Assembly: GCF_023824195.1 (NCBI RefSeq)
Contig: NZ_CP085442.1
Coordinates: 2,146,001-2,210,000, forward strand
Length of the DNA: 64,000 bases
Source: Priestia megaterium
Lineage (GTDB): Bacteria; Bacillota; Bacilli; Bacillales; Bacillaceae_H
Reading direction: 5' to 3'
Positions within the stretch are counted from its first letter, which is position 1. Each line of letters begins with the position of its first letter. The position numbers and the translations under genes were made by a program. The notes under the pieces were generated by a model. It saw only the letters and a list, made by a program, of their open reading frames with translations, did no database searches and was not told the origin of the DNA. Of this stretch, positions 3 to 62,703 are shown piece by piece.

Positions 3-1151
3 TGGATTGCCGGAGGAGTTGTTCCTTCTCTTATTTATTTTGGATTAGAGTTTATTAATCCAACATTCTTTTTACTTGCTACACTTATCATTTGCTCTAT
101 TACCTCGATTTCAACAGGAACATCTTGGGGAACGGTTGGCACAGCTGGAATTGCGATGATGGGAATTGGACAGGGGCTAGGTATGCCGCTTCCTTTAGTA
201 GCAGGAGCCGTGATTTCAGGAGCTTATTTTGGAGACAAACTTTCTCCTCTTTCTGACAGTACCATTTTATCTGCGTCAATGGCTCGAGTGAATGTTATTG
301 ATCACGTAAAAGCAATGTTAGTTTTAGATATTCCTGCTTACCTCATTACGGCAGTACTATTTACCGTAACAGGATTTATGTATGGAGGTAAAGATTTTGA
401 TGCTGGACGTGTAGAAGAATTAAAGTCTTCGCTGTTGGATACATTCCATATCAGCGGGTGGATGCTGATTCCTGCTTTGGCTGTCATTGTCCTTTTAGCA
501 TTAAAGAAACCTTCTCTTCCAGCAATTGCAATTGGTTCATTGTTAGGAATTATATGGGCAGTTGTCTTTCAACATATGGATGTGGCGAGCGCATTTAATA
601 CCGCTTATGAAGGATTTAAAATTAATACCGATAATACATTTTTAAGTGAGCTGTTAAACCGAGGCGGGATTTTAAGCATGGTTGACTCTATTATTGTGAT
701 TATTTTCGGTCTAGGATTTGGCGGTTTATTAGATGAGCTGGGCGTCTTAGAAGTCCTGCTATCTAAATTTGAAAAAATTCTTGTCAATTCAGGAAACGTT
801 ACGGCTTCTACTATTTTCGTTGGGTTATTAGGAAATATATTTGGTTGTGCGATGTATGTTTCATTGATTTTAACACCGAAAATTATGGAGAAAAGTTATG
901 ACAAGTTAAGAATACAGCGTCTGGTGCTTGCCCGTAACTCAGAAGTAGGGGGAACCTTAACTTCAGGGATGGTTCCGTGGACGGACAACGGTGTATTTCT
1001 AGCTACAACGCTTGGGATTTCTACATTCGCTTATCTGCCGTTTATGTGGCTCAGCTTTGTCTCTATTATTTTGGCGATTATTTACGGATATACAGGGAAA
1101 TTCATTTGGTACGTAACCGAAGAAAAACAACGTTCTTCTATAGCGAAATAA
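3..1151 (+). CDS. nhaC: Na+/H+ antiporter, NhaC family (5' end outside window)
   Basis: The reading frame is open from the first bases of the window, so this is the C-terminal part of a longer gene. The visible part is a polytopic membrane protein with about eight hydrophobic segments. It carries the NhaC-type conserved stretch TGTSWGTVGTAGIA near residues 41-54 of the visible part, followed by a second conserved segment GDKLSPLSDST. NhaC proteins exchange cytoplasmic Na+ for external H+ at the cell membrane and help pH and sodium homeostasis; some relatives exchange malate/H+ for Na+/lactate, so the substrate is not certain. The stop codon abuts copy A of the dispersed repeat, whose hairpin probably terminates the transcript. 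Confidence 0.85.
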   Translation, partial: WIAGGVVPSLIYFGLEFINPTFFLLATLIICSITSISTGTSWGTVGTAGIAMMGIGQGLGMPLPLVAGAVISGAYFGDKLSPLSDSTILSASMARVNVIDHVKAMLVLDIPAYLITAVLFTVTGFMYGGKDFDAGRVEELKSSLLDTFHISGWMLIPALAVIVLLALKKPSLPAIAIGSLLGIIWAVVFQHMDVASAFNTAYEGFKINTDNTFLSELLNRGGILSMVDSIIVIIFGLGFGGLLDELGVLEVLLSKFEKILVNSGNVTASTIFVGLLGNIFGCAMYVSLILTPKIMEKSYDKLRIQRLVLARNSEVGGTLTSGMVPWTDNGVFLATTLGISTFAYLPFMWLSFVSIILAIIYGYTGKFIWYVTEEKQRSSIAK

Positions 1152-1303
1152 AAGAGGCTGGAACAAGAGTATTTTAGTTGAAGGAAAATCCGAACGATGA
1201 ATTGAGATTCTTGATGGAGAATCAACTTCGTTCGGATTTTTTTATTGGTACAATTTGATCGCCTTTAGATTGAATTGATTTAGTTATGTCTCGAGCTCTT
1301 TTT
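1151..1303 (+). repeat. Dispersed intergenic element, copy A (internally deleted)
   Basis: It begins AAAGAGGCTGGAACAAGAG at the nhaC stop codon and contains a long hairpin with arms ATCCGAACGA and TCGTTCGGAT followed by a T-run (about 1188-1241), which should act as a terminator. It then jumps directly to the element's tail (TTTAGATTGAATTGATTTAG, then TTATGTCTCG). The roughly 140-190 bp structured core found in the other copies (8391, 17431, 25878, 59714) is missing. The two ends are loosely inverted relative to each other. The tail stops at the 3' end of the convergent GntR gene. Confidence 0.75.
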
Positions 1304-6974: not shown

Positions 6975-8391
6975 ACTTCTTACGAGGGCTAAACAGAAAG
7001 TAAAACAAAAAGTAAAGCAAGATTTATTCAGCCAGACGCAAAATCGTTTAACATTCCGATACAGCGCATTACTAATGCTGTTTCTGCTTTTATTCGTATT
7101 TATTGTTTATGCATTGGTATATGTGGTTGTATCCAACAGTCAGCAGCAAAACTTAAATAGCATGTTAAAACAAGAGTCTCGAATTGTCCAAAGCATCTTA
7201 ATTAAACAAGCGATAAACAGCTCGGATCAACAGTCAAAAGAAGAGTACAAAAACATTGTCGTAGCCGGTGAAGATCAGTTTTTTTATTATGTAATCAGTC
7301 CTGAAGGGGACCTTATTATGGGAAACGAAGCGAGCGAGCGGCTTCGCTCTAACTTATTAGATTTAATTGATGGGTGGATCCCTATTGAAAATGAAGTGAG
7401 GAAAGAACGAATAAAAGCCCCGCGTCCTAGCTTTGAACACATTGAAGGAGTAAAAGGGCAAAACGGGGAAGGCAAAATAGATATTGATTTGATGATGGCG
7501 GGTGAACCTATTTTTTATAAAGGTCAATTTTTAGGGATGCTTTATATTGGAAAAGACGTTTCATTTCTTTATCAGCTGTTAAAGTGGCTCCTTATTATTA
7601 TGCTGAGCCTTACCGTACTGTTTGTAGGAGTAGCCATTTATATCAGCCGCTTAATGTCAAAACGTGCCATGGTCCCAATTGAAACAGCTTTCCAAAAGCA
7701 AAAAGAGTTTGTGGCGGATGCATCCCATGAGTTAAGAACGCCGCTTAGCGTTATGCTTTCTTCTATCAACGCTTTAGAAATGCAGGAGGAAGTAACAGAA
7801 GATCCTTTTTCTAAAAAATTAATCAATAATATGAAAGCTGAAGTGAAGCGGATGACGAGTCTCGTCAGTGATTTGCTTACGCTTGCACGCTCAGACTCTA
7901 ATAAAGTAGAAAAAGCAATGATGCCCTTTGATATTACAGATGCGGTGCAAAAGGTAATGGAATCCGTTGAAACCCTAGCGATTTCTAAACATATTGATTT
8001 GCAGCTGGATACGCCGGAAAAATTAGTGGTAACTGGAGATCAAGAGCGTCTAACTCAGCTGATTTACATTTTGTTAGACAATGCTATTAAATATACGACT
8101 CCTCATGGAAGTGTAAACATTCAAGTGGTTCAGCATGGGAGTGAATGTATATTAAAAGTACGTGATACAGGGGTTGGAATTCATCCCGACGAAAAGGATC
8201 GAATCTTTGACCGCTTTTATCGTGCTGATAAATCCCGATCCCGTCAAATGGGAGGTCATGGGCTTGGCCTAGCAATCGCTAAATGGATTGTAGAAACACA
8301 TAAAGGAAAAATTGACGTAGAAAGTGAACAAGAAAAAGGAAGTACATTTACAGTAAGGTTGCCAATGTCACAAAAAGTGAAAAAGAGTTAA
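6964..8391 (+). CDS. Sensor histidine kinase
   Basis: A 475-residue kinase starting with TTG and overlapping the regulator by 11 bases. It has a membrane segment (about 36-56), an extracytoplasmic sensor region of about 140 residues, a second membrane segment (about 201-222), and a dimerisation domain with the phosphorylated His near residue 255 in ADASHELRTP. An HATPase domain follows, with an N box (LDNAIKYT), a G1 box (DTGVGI) and a G2 box (GGHGLGLAI). It phosphorylates the regulator encoded just upstream. The sensor region is not one I can name. The stop codon runs directly into copy B of the dispersed repeat, whose hairpin should terminate the operon. Confidence 0.9.
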   Translation: MKAKLLTRAKQKVKQKVKQDLFSQTQNRLTFRYSALLMLFLLLFVFIVYALVYVVVSNSQQQNLNSMLKQESRIVQSILIKQAINSSDQQSKEEYKNIVVAGEDQFFYYVISPEGDLIMGNEASERLRSNLLDLIDGWIPIENEVRKERIKAPRPSFEHIEGVKGQNGEGKIDIDLMMAGEPIFYKGQFLGMLYIGKDVSFLYQLLKWLLIIMLSLTVLFVGVAIYISRLMSKRAMVPIETAFQKQKEFVADASHELRTPLSVMLSSINALEMQEEVTEDPFSKKLINNMKAEVKRMTSLVSDLLTLARSDSNKVEKAMMPFDITDAVQKVMESVETLAISKHIDLQLDTPEKLVVTGDQERLTQLIYILLDNAIKYTTPHGSVNIQVVQHGSECILKVRDTGVGIHPDEKDRIFDRFYRADKSRSRQMGGHGLGLAIAKWIVETHKGKIDVESEQEKGSTFTVRLPMSQKVKKS

Positions 8392-8689
8392 AAGAGGCTG
8401 TGACAAAATTAGTTGAAGGAAGATCCGAACGAGTTTGATTCTTGATGGGGAATCAAACTCGTTCGGATTTTTTTATGGTTAGGGTGAACGTAGGTTTCAC
8501 GTATGTAGTTGCTTCTAGCTGTTGATTGGAGGGCAAGGAGAAGACTCTTGCGGGAAAAGCGAAATAGGTGAGACCCCGCAGAAAGCGAAGGCTTGCACGG
8601 AAATCAACAGCAGTGTCACAAGCGATCTATACTTGCCCATTTATCCAATTTGTTCGTCCATTGATTTGGTTATGTCTCAATCTCTTTTT
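8391..8689 (+). repeat. Dispersed intergenic element, copy B (about 299 bp)
   Basis: It starts AAAGAGGCTGTGACAAA within the kinase stop codon. The terminator-like hairpin at 8422-8475 has arms ATCCGAACGAGTTTGATT and AATCAAACTCGTTCGGAT with a T-run. The core has outer arms CTGTTGATT and AATCAACAG enclosing GC-rich segments (GGAGGGCAAGGAGAAGACTC, GAGACCCCGCAG, AAAGCGAAGGCTTGCACGG). The tail is TTATGTCTCAATCTCTTTTT, an imperfect inverted match to the head. A short open frame inside it (8568-8756) has no ribosome binding site and is not counted. The remaining 220 bases before allB hold no clear feature. Confidence 0.8.
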
Positions 8690-17291: not shown

Positions 17292-17430
17292 ATTTGTAAA
17301 TTCCCTTCTTCTACTAGACTCATATCTTCATATGGTACTATAAAAAAACGTTTGATTCAATTTAATGATTTTTTGAAAAAAAGAAGCATGCGTATACTTT
17401 GTTTGAACTCCTTGTAAGTAGATGAAACAA

Positions 17431-17770
17431 AGAAATTGAGACATAACTAAATCACTCGAATCTATAGACGAACAAATGGGATAAATGATCTAGTATGGAT
17501 GACTTGTTACACCGCTGTTGATTTCCGTGCAAGACTTCGCTTTCCGCGGGCGACCGATGAGCCTCCTCGTCGCATACGCTCCTGCGGGGTCTCATCTGTT
17601 CCGCTTTTCCCGCAGGAGACTTCGCCTTGCTCTCCAATCACCAGCTAGAAGCAACTAAACACATGAAAGCTACGTTCATTTTAACAATAAAAAACACGAA
17701 CTAATAATCGAAAATTTTGATTGTTAGTTCGTATTTTACTTCGACTAAAATTCTTTTGTCCCAGCTTCTG
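17431..17770 (-). repeat. Dispersed intergenic element, copy C (about 340 bp, minus orientation)
   Basis: Read on the minus strand, it begins just after the ytmO stop codon with AGAAGCTGGGACAAAAG. It has a hairpin with arms ACGAACTAACAATC / GATTATTAGTTCGT, then the full GC-rich core (CTCCTGCGGG pairing with CCCCGCAGGAG; GATGAG pairing with CTCATC) and the tail TTAGTTATGTCTCAATTTCT. It is the longest copy and shares its hairpin type with copy D, not with A, B or E. A 61-codon frame within it (17452-17637) has no ribosome binding site and is not counted. Confidence 0.8.
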
Positions 17771-25868: not shown

Positions 25869-25877
25869 AGTAGATTC

Positions 25878-26215
25878 AAAGATACCGGGAAAAAAGTATT
25901 TTAGCTGAAGTGAAAAACGAACTATTAATCGAAATCTTTTGATTAATAGTTCGTTTTTTTGTTATGGTAAACGCAGGTTTCATCTGTTTAGTTCCCTTTA
26001 GCAGTTGATTGGAGGGCAAGGCGAAGACTCCTGGAAAAGCGGAACAGATGAGACCCCGCAGGAGCAAAAGCGACGAGGAGGCTCATCGGCCGCCCGCGGA
26101 AAGCGAAGTCTTGCATGGAAATCAACGGCCGTGTAACAAGCCATCCATATGAGCTCATGTATCCCATTTGCTCGTCTTTAGATTGAATTAATTTAGTTAT
26201 GTCTCGACCTTTTTT
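25878..26215 (+). repeat. Dispersed intergenic element, copy D (about 338 bp)
   Basis: The head is degenerate (GATACCGGGAAAAAAGTATT). The hairpin ACGAACTATTAATC / GATTAATAGTTCGT with T7 (25917-25961) has the same stem type as copy C. The core has full-length GC-rich pairs (GATGAGACCCCGCAGGAG and GAGGAGGCTCATCGG), and the tail is TTAGTTATGTCTCGACC. Copies C and D bracket the whole ytmO-ytnJ region in opposite orientation. Between its tail and the next gene lies an AT-rich stretch with no clear feature. Confidence 0.78.
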
Positions 26216-26313
26216 AATATTTTTAATATTAAAATATGGTAAAATTCTTTTTGTAGGTTATTCGTTTCAGTTCATAAGGCCTAAAGGGTTTTGAATACCC
26301 GGAAAGGAGTCAA

Positions 26314-59702: not shown

Positions 59703-59713
59703 TAAGAAGTTAA

Positions 59714-59999
59714 AAAGAGGCTGAGACAAAGATATTTTCGTTGAAGGAAGATCCGAACGAGTTTGATTCTTGATTGAGAATCAAACCCGTTCGGATTTTT
59801 TTCATTGATAGGGTCAACATAGGTTTCATGTATGGAGGTGCTTCTAGCCGTTGATTGGAGGGCAAGGCGAAGACTCCCGCGGAAAGCGAAATCTTGCACG
59901 GAAATTAATAGCGGTGTTACAAGCGATCAATACTAGAGCATTTATCCAGTTTGTTCGTCTTTAGATTGGATTGATTTCGTTATGTCTGAATCTTTTTTT
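59714..59999 (+). repeat. Dispersed intergenic element, copy E (about 286 bp)
   Basis: It starts AAAGAGGCTGAGACAAAG 11 bases after the folD stop. The hairpin ATCCGAACGAGTTTGATTC / GAATCAAACCCGTTCGGAT (one mismatch) with T7 is of the same type as A and B. The core is shortened relative to C and D: the segment with ATGAGACCCCGCAGGAG is missing. The tail is CGTTATGTCTGAATCTTTTT. Head and tail are imperfectly inverted. Confidence 0.8.
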
Positions 60000-60066
60000 G
60001 TTTCAGTAATGGAATAAAAGCTAAAAGAATAGAATGTAACAACCTGTATAGAAAGAGGAGGAAGCG

Positions 60067-61107: not shown

Positions 61108-62532
61108 ATGATAAAAATAGCATTCAAAGGATTACTTATTATTTTATCTTTATATATTCTGTATGTGGTTATAACGGCGGTGGTTCTCTTTTATGTACCT
61201 TTAAAAACAGGAGAGGAAACGACCTCAATTAAACCGGCTAGCTTTTTTGGTCACAGTGAGTCTACGGACCGAGTCAGACTTCTTGAAGATGGTTATGAGG
61301 CAGGAAGAGTTCGTATTCAAATGATTCAAGAAGCTGAGAAATCGATTGATATTGCTTATTACTCAATAGGAAAAGGAGAGTCAACTGATTTAATTATGGC
61401 CGCTCTTTTTAAAGCAGCTGATCGAGGCGTCCATACTCGCGTTCTTTTAGATGGGATAGCTAACGGCTTACGGGGAAACCGAAGAGGCGTGCTCTATGCA
61501 TTAGCTTCACATCCTAATATTGAAGTAAAGTATTACGAACCGTTTCAATTGTTTAAACCTTGGGCGTGGCATAATCGTATGCATGACAAAATAATGATTG
61601 TAGACGGGAGACTAGGTATAATAGGAGGACGGAATATAGGGGACAAATATTTGGCTAAAAAGCCTCCTCCAGACTTCGTCTATGATCGTGATGTCTTTAT
61701 TACAAACAGCAAACATAAACAAGATAGCGTCATCACTCAAATGCAAAATTATATAAATGAATTATGGGCTCATCCTTACACTAAAAAAGCTTTTCATCAT
61801 CTCACCCAGTACCAGGTCGATCAGGGAAAGAGGATGAAAGCTTTGCTGCTGCAGCAATATGATAAAGCTAAGCAAGTAGGAGAAACGTTTGCGACGCCTA
61901 AGATTAATTGGAATGCTTCCACCGTTCCTACAAAGCGTGTTTCTTTTATTCATAATCCAATTGAACGCTTTAATAAAAGACCTTTTATGTGGAAAACGTT
62001 TATTAACCTGGCAGAAGGAGCTAACCGCTCTGTTCTTATTCAAAGTCCTTATGTGGTGCCAACTAATGCGATGAGAAAGTATACAGCAATGAAAAAGAAT
62101 CCAGCTGTTCAATGGACACTACTCACAAATTCAGTTACATCTACGCCCAATGTGTTGGCTTTTTCCGGGTATATAAGTATGCGTGATACGATTATGAAGA
62201 CAGGTGTAAAGCTTTACGAATACCAAGGACCTTATTCGATCCATGCAAAGTCTGTGATTTATGATCAAAGACTCAGCGCCGTAGGCTCTTTTAATTTAGA
62301 TTCCCGTTCTACATTTTTGAATAATGAATCAATGGTCATTATCGATAGTCAAGAATTTGCAAAAAAGTTGACGATAGCGATGGAAAACAAAATGGATAAA
62401 AGTATCCTTATTGCCAACCATAAGCGATGGATTAAATCTCCTGACATCCAAAAGAAAGAAGAACCTGTTATGAAGCGAACCTTCCTATACGCCCTTGCAA
62501 AAGTGACGAGGTTTTTTAAGGAATTTATTTAA
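61108..62532 (+). CDS. Phospholipase D-superfamily membrane enzyme (cardiolipin synthase-like)
   Basis: A 474-residue protein: one N-terminal membrane segment (about 4-30) and two PLD half-domains. HKD motif 1 is HDKIMIVDG (about 157-165) with GGRNIGD; motif 2 is HAKSVIYD (about 378-385) with GSFNLDSRS. This is the layout of cardiolipin synthases and related phosphatidyltransferases acting at the membrane, but the single N-terminal helix suggests a PLD-type hydrolase/transferase whose substrate is uncertain. ATG 61108 follows TGGAG. Confidence 0.82.
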   Translation: MIKIAFKGLLIILSLYILYVVITAVVLFYVPLKTGEETTSIKPASFFGHSESTDRVRLLEDGYEAGRVRIQMIQEAEKSIDIAYYSIGKGESTDLIMAALFKAADRGVHTRVLLDGIANGLRGNRRGVLYALASHPNIEVKYYEPFQLFKPWAWHNRMHDKIMIVDGRLGIIGGRNIGDKYLAKKPPPDFVYDRDVFITNSKHKQDSVITQMQNYINELWAHPYTKKAFHHLTQYQVDQGKRMKALLLQQYDKAKQVGETFATPKINWNASTVPTKRVSFIHNPIERFNKRPFMWKTFINLAEGANRSVLIQSPYVVPTNAMRKYTAMKKNPAVQWTLLTNSVTSTPNVLAFSGYISMRDTIMKTGVKLYEYQGPYSIHAKSVIYDQRLSAVGSFNLDSRSTFLNNESMVIIDSQEFAKKLTIAMENKMDKSILIANHKRWIKSPDIQKKEEPVMKRTFLYALAKVTRFFKEFI

Positions 62533-62549
62533 ACAACCGGCAGTAGAAC

Positions 62550-62586
62550 AAAAAGCACTCAATGAACATTCATTGAGTGCTTTTTG
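62550..62586 (+). terminator. Terminator after the PLD gene
   Basis: AAAAAGCACTCAATGA / TCATTGAGTGCTTTTT, near-perfect stem, T-run. Confidence 0.9.
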
Positions 62587-62703
62587 TTACATATCTTATA
62601 AATAAGTGAATAAACACACTTATCACATGATGTAAATTATCCTCTTTTATTTACTGGGGAAAATAGGTAGTATAAACATAATAAACAAAAAGGAGGAAGG
62701 CAC

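Follow-up and report, generated by a model that had tools for sequence, protein, structure and literature searches.

Structured repeats interspersed through intergenic DNA are known in the Bacillaceae from the bcr repeats of the Bacillus cereus group, and the element described here resembles these, by description, in being an interspersed, structured intergenic repeat in the same bacterial family. IS1272, which we take to be a member of the IS1182 family of insertion sequences (IS), reportedly moves by 'inverted repeat-replacing' transposition, in which the IS is substituted for an inverted repeat. Our element likewise replaces an inverted repeat, but it differs from IS1272 in being a miniature element with its own terminator, in its high copy number and in its occurrence in another genus. 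With IS1182-family IS it shares the same terminal inverted repeats (TIR), hairpins inside the ends, proximity to stop codons (5 of 8 IS copies) and the replacement of a native terminator (one case for the IS), whereas the copies in the DNA analyzed here are only ~153-340 bp long and contain no transposase gene.

Among the literature consulted, the nearest described repeat is SPRITE of Streptococcus pneumoniae, which, according to the available parts of its description, resembles a Rho-independent terminator, is enriched near the 3′ ends of genes, is present in 30 copies in the strain studied, has AAAA/TTTT ends and has no established target duplication (PMC3049150). The likeness to our element is one of description, in that both are terminator-like, lie near gene 3′ ends, are bordered by A and T runs and have no established target duplication, and the authors of the SPRITE description found no comparable empty site (PMC3049150). 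The main text of a MITE review, in the part available, makes no mention of IS1182 or Bacillus (PMC10969869), and our limited literature search returned nothing on this element, which is not a claim that it is absent from print. As far as could be told, what is new is a miniature form that carries a terminator, the scale on which it occurs and the logic of exchanging one terminator for another on insertion.

The window, a 64,000-nucleotide stretch of the 5.98-Mb genome of Priestia megaterium (the source genome, G000; C1:2146001-2210000), contains five copies of this element at about the places where an earlier note on this DNA had located them. We read the family, with a probability of about 0.9, as a non-autonomous MITE that is derived from IS1182-family IS and moves by inverted-repeat replacement of native terminators. 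The copies and their parts, in window positions, are:

1149 to 1303, plus strand: copy 1, an element without a core; head 1150-1168, tail 1284-1303
about 1187 to 1243, plus strand: terminator hairpin and T-run of copy 1
8390 to 8689, plus strand: copy 2; head 8390-8408, tail 8670-8689
about 8420 to 8474, plus strand: terminator of copy 2, with an internally shortened core at about 8519-8610
17429 to 17770, minus strand: copy 3, a full element; head 17770-17754, tail 17446-17429
about 17737 to 17687, minus strand: terminator of copy 3 (its stem sequence differs), with a core at about 17644-17514
25877 to 26216, plus strand: copy 4, a full element; head 25878-25895, tail 26197-26216
about 25914 to 25961, plus strand: terminator of copy 4, with a core at about 26002-26129
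59712 to 60000, plus strand: copy 5, with a shortened core; head 59713-59731, tail 59980-59999
about 59749 to 59802, plus strand: terminator of copy 5, with a core remnant at about 59849-59911

As the note had described, all five heads lie 0 to ~11 nt from a stop codon and are co-oriented with the upstream ORF, these ORFs ending at 1151, 8391, 17773 (minus strand), 25868 and 59702. The GC-rich core that it assigned to every copy is present in four of the five (shortened in copy 5) and missing from the copy at 1151-1303. An alignment of 33 G000 copies reveals a common plan of head (AAAGAGGCTGGGACAAAA), terminator hairpin, T-run, linker, GC-rich core and tail (TTATGTCTCAATCTCTTTT, an imperfect inverse of the head), and most of the 16 full cores measure 128 bp.

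In the whole G000 genome, a 16-base head pattern with at most one mismatch gave 84 matches, compared with 0 for a reversed control pattern; first-look searches listed 192 and 206 candidates, 40 of the first set and 11 of the second being scored, and the 40 yielded 63 matches. The element also matched 17 plasmid records, 6 of them from P. megaterium, and in NZ_CP140268 it occupies the gap that separates lipA from a convergent gene, leaving 7 nt next to lipA and 6 nt at the opposite end. No match was found in the phage records searched, and a scan of named genomes with an exact 29-base pattern returned 0 matches. Elsewhere in the window, a strong palindrome at 62537-62598, 3′ of an ORF ending at 62532, gave a sub-threshold Rfam match to mir-1271 on both strands and is probably a native terminator.

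Syntenic stretches of G000, G008 and G001 (400 kb each) and of G003 (351 kb) were searched with a profile of the element; G008, G001 and G003 match an 11-kb piece of the window at 96-98% identity. This search called 71 copies of 68-366 bp (23, 19, 22 and 7 in G000, G008, G001 and G003) at 30 orthologous sites, numbered by their first copy, and the counts include site 10, whose four low-scoring copies (17-27 bits) may be non-members. The bias in orientation and stop-codon distance claimed from the five window copies held in this larger set: 68 of the 71 copies lie behind a co-oriented ORF, as called by a simple greedy script rather than by annotation, with 55 of the 68 no more than 16 nt from the stop codon and the remaining 13 at 24-269 nt. 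The ORF calls put copy 52 in a divergent gap, an arrangement that accounts for 270 of the 1058 gaps longer than 40 bp, but place its orthologues (3 and 25) behind a co-oriented ORF at 28-31 nt. Two copies, that of G008 at site 21 and that of G003 at site 43, are reversed, so that their terminator is directed against the gene beside them.

At 26 of the 30 sites, at least one genome has no called element and has flanks that align directly, which provides 44 empty alleles, and nearly every one of these contains a short intrinsic terminator composed of an A-run, a stem-loop and a T-run. Sites 0 and 10 are filled in four of four genomes, and sites 4 and 22 cannot be mapped in G003, so these offer no empty-site evidence. 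In 43 of the 44 comparisons, covering the 26 sites, the target inverted repeat is lost and the element is in its place, the exact native stem arm being missing from the filled allele; the lone exception is a degraded element remnant in G001 at site 13 and not a true empty site. Perfect stems of at least 9 bp occur in 39 of the 44 empty alleles (read in windows of varying length) versus 87 of 340 gene 3′ ends in G003, where gene 5′ ends (7 of 339) and random 60-nt windows (9 of 600) served as controls. Both junctions can be placed within the outer A-T pairs of the stem in seven comparisons (5 sites), and there the removed DNA coincides with the palindrome, for example GAACAGCGCCTACAGCTGTTC or ACCCGCATAAAGCGGGT; in the other 37, A/T runs and point changes blur the junctions so that they cannot be fixed to the stem. 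In G008, the empty allele of site 19 consists of 115 bp of other sequence, a hairpin included.

The direction of the change can be read where a single genome has the element. This genome is G000 at sites 14 and 18 and G003 at sites 43, 47 and 48, and one related native terminator per site is common to the other three genomes, so the event is a gain. Within the window, copy 4 is filled in G000 alone of the four genomes and faces the native terminator AAAGAGACTCGAAGGAGTCTCTTT in G008, G003 and G001. The empty site of copy 1 in G003 is AAAAGCAAGCACTTCGGTGCTTGCTTTT, that of copy 2 in G003 is AAAAAAGGAATGCCAGCAGGCATTCCTTTTTT, with shorter copies (~164 bp) at this site in G008 and G001, and the empty sites of copy 5 in G008 and G003 are AAAAATCCCGTGCGTATATGCACGGGATTTTT. 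The site of copy 3 has no empty allele in the four genomes, being filled in G003 too, shortened in G008 and reduced in G001 to a 71-bp remnant of head and terminator.

Loss of the native hairpin might instead have followed insertion of the element beside a terminator, the redundant native copy then being selectively deleted. Deletion does occur in this family, as seen from the many copies that lack internal parts, but we consider this route quite improbable, given that the exact native stem arm is retained in only 1 of 44 comparisons (the degraded element), with single-genome sites included in that count, and that no target site duplication was noticed by eye at 24 sites, where the target hairpin is missing instead. 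Replacement of the terminator also accounts for the positional bias, since an element that takes the place of a native terminator will lie at the gene 3′ end where that terminator already was.

The source of the ends was traced by searching 151 genomes of the class with the 16-base head pattern, which matched in 47. Inverted pairs of the head at a fixed spacing of ~1.8 kb were found in G103 and G118, and these represent intact IS (5 and 6 copies, respectively) whose TIR, GAGGCTGGGACAWAA, equals the element head, making this TIR common to the window elements and to intact IS of 1.8-2.0 kb. The G103 and G118 transposases carry PF05598, PF01609 and PF13751 and score 414 and 428 bits against NF033551 (transpos_IS1182), for which the cut-off is 270. 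The same TIR is present in annotated IS1182-family IS on plasmids of Cytobacillus pseudoceanisediminis and Kurthia gibsonii, a Terribacillus IS has the variant TIR GAGAGCGGGACA, and ISSau3 is labelled IS1182 family (NCBIfam NF033551) among the 439 records with a transposase match, of which 3 named IS records were examined. The window family is thus MITE-like in being short, multi-copy, bounded by TIR, free of a transposase gene and matched in its ends to an autonomous element, and departs from a MITE in that no target site duplication was noticed.

These dedicated ends, common to the family and to intact IS1182 elements, bear on a second alternative, ectopic gene conversion or template switching through microhomology of the A-run and T-run, with no transposase involved. 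In its favor, many junctions fall within A and T runs and no transposase is found at present, but the transposon ends count against it, and sites 8 and 20 have no clear A-run ahead of the stem; we therefore judge it improbable.

The intact IS resemble the miniature element in further respects. Among 8 distinct IS copies of G103 and G118, 5 lie within 0-8 nt of a stop codon and 3 do not, using ORFs of at least 75 codons and flanks that are short on one side. A perfect hairpin of 15-21 bp is found just inside the right end at 7 of 7 IS loci, and a long hairpin just inside the left end at 7 of 7 (a perfect 19-bp stem at 3 loci, one containing mismatches or G-U pairs at the other 4), compared with perfect stems of 3-7 bp in internal IS windows; the 7 loci represent 6 distinct ones, as L243 is identical to L280, and L242 and L278 share their left hairpin. 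At one G118 IS site, the one site tested and in a genus other than that of the window, the relative G208 keeps a native terminator at the same spot, which argues that the full IS replaced a hairpin too. The occupant of this site in G207, where the flank is 98% identical, is a miniature element of 162 bp that shares the head and contains a hairpin followed by a T-run, whereas the L200-type relatives G206 and G209 are too diverged to be read there. The full IS of G118 and the miniature of G207 at one gene end (L273 versus L224) represent either two separate hits or a swap in which one took over from the other.

An IS1182 transposase was not found in G000, G001, G003, G007 or G008 by PF13751 above its cut-off or by a protein query at an E value of 1e-10, G003 and G007 being drafts of ~130 and ~70 contigs in which an IS could be lost at contig ends. 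One PF13751 match in G000 (C1:4765071; 9e-4) falls below the cut-off, lies in an ORF that is not transposase-like by eye and looks like chance. No longer autonomous copy was seen in G003, where the pattern matched 41 heads and 38 tails: a tail lies no more than 400 bp from 37 of the heads, the tail nearest to one head, at 2.7 kb, is that of a different head, and for 3 there is no tail within 5 kb. A broken IS1182 element is present in G006, of the same genus (L212; G006:C15:4770-8144), carrying a core copy at each end and, within the ends, a hairpin with a T-run. The element profile matches the ends of this relic at 1e-32 and 5e-18, and its broken frame scores 234 bits against NF033551, under the 270 cut-off. 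Because the five genomes yielded no transposase and G006 retains such a relic, the window family is best read, from sequence comparison, as an orphan derivative of an IS such as that of G006. A REP/RAYT-type element moved by a Y1 transposase would also produce high-copy, hairpin-rich intergenic repeats, but Y1_Tnp (PF01797) is absent from G000, G001, G003, G007 and G008 while present in 46 of the 61 genomes searched, and the ends match a DDE transposon, so the chance that this family is of that type is close to negligible.

The GC-rich core is also found with other outer ends. A 340-bp element query matched 44 of 61 genomes, and among the matches listed, those outside the Priestia group and G018 cover the core only. 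Of 63 IS loci scanned, 7 have a core close to a match to a transposase of IS1182-like or related type (G006, counted twice, G054, G044, G018, where the two are ~1 kb apart, and G038, which is weak) and 56 do not, the latter including the intact IS of G103, G118, G053 and G028. Cores with different outer ends were observed in many Bacillales genomes (G042, G025, G060; L282-L301); in G025 the core is enclosed by the ends GGCCACTGAAAAA and is mostly not near stop codons, and in several copies this core unit seems nested in another core-like repeat.

Within the 71 copies, the terminator is the part best kept. An internal hairpin followed by a T-run is found in 69, compared with 7 on the reverse strand and 9 after shuffling, and the parts retained number 71 for the terminator, 66 for the head, 45 for the tail and 41 for the core (counted as kept when the element is at least 200 long), a count open to bias from the profile search, in which copies with core and tail minus the terminator should have been detectable. 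Decay has thus removed head and terminator less often than core and tail. The compensatory base changes that the earlier note had set as a test are present to a modest extent: of the 57 orthologous pairs in which the hairpin was usable, indels or divergence led us to set 37 aside, and in the remaining 20 the changes on both sides of the stem preserved pairing 5 times and broke it 0 times, while single stem changes kept pairing in 15 cases and broke it in 10.

These data also bear on the two roles that the note had offered, a mobile terminator or a 3′UTR RNA. A conserved regulatory RNA, with ends and core selected as one structured transcript, would be consistent with the folding of copy 3, which is far better than that of shuffled sequences (z of -5.5). 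Such a role is nonetheless very improbable, as many copies keep the terminator but have lost core and tail, RNAalifold finds nearly no consensus fold for the whole element (5 weak pairs in a gappy 36-row alignment) and no Rfam family matches in the window at the gathering score (0 matches), with nothing at the element under permissive thresholds. The data point instead to the mobile terminator, for which the presence and absence of copies in sister genomes, the transposon ends and the retained hairpin and T-run all speak, and the position behind genes, which had suggested either role to the note, comes from native-terminator replacement.

Orientation does not seem to be fixed at insertion. At site 21 (G000 stretch 375773-376132; G008 stretch 380503-380781), the copies of G000 and G001 are 94% alike, and the G008 copy, which is reversed, is 78% and 76% like them but up to 89% like copies elsewhere; because of this resemblance the terminator at site 21 appears to have been hit twice, independently and in opposite orientations. 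More broadly, the nearest relative is the orthologous copy for 39 of the 57 copies that have one, and the 18 for which it is not reflect either repeated hits or noise from decay or poor alignment. The strong co-orientation of the family is probably the result of selection for a working terminator.

Taken as a mechanism, the element would take the place of the native terminator stem-loop, leaving the A-run and T-run at its borders, and would supply, directly internal to the head, a terminator hairpin of its own; the upstream gene would keep a terminator because the element brings one. An IS1182 transposase, since lost from this genome, may have acted in trans and may recognise the target hairpin as a DNA structure, and the internal hairpins are predicted to terminate transcription in the cell. 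Terminator replacement, the sharing of TIR with IS1182 elements and the better retention of head and terminator appear directly in the sequence comparisons, the assignment of the transposase rests on matching ends in other genomes, and transposition is seen as alleles, not as an event.

On balance, we lean toward a more general proposal, that IS1182-type transposases of Bacilli target the hairpin of an intrinsic terminator, remove it and install a terminator-bearing element, which would lead to a near-neutral, genome-wide turnover of terminators in which dead copies are kept as host terminators. Transposon insertion usually carries a cost through damage to the host, and a terminator-for-terminator exchange would allow very high copy numbers. 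A hairpin target would be a clear and testable property of a transposase family, and the empty-site comparison could be applied to other terminator-like repeats such as SPRITE. In this way, mobile DNA would become a source of transcription terminators.
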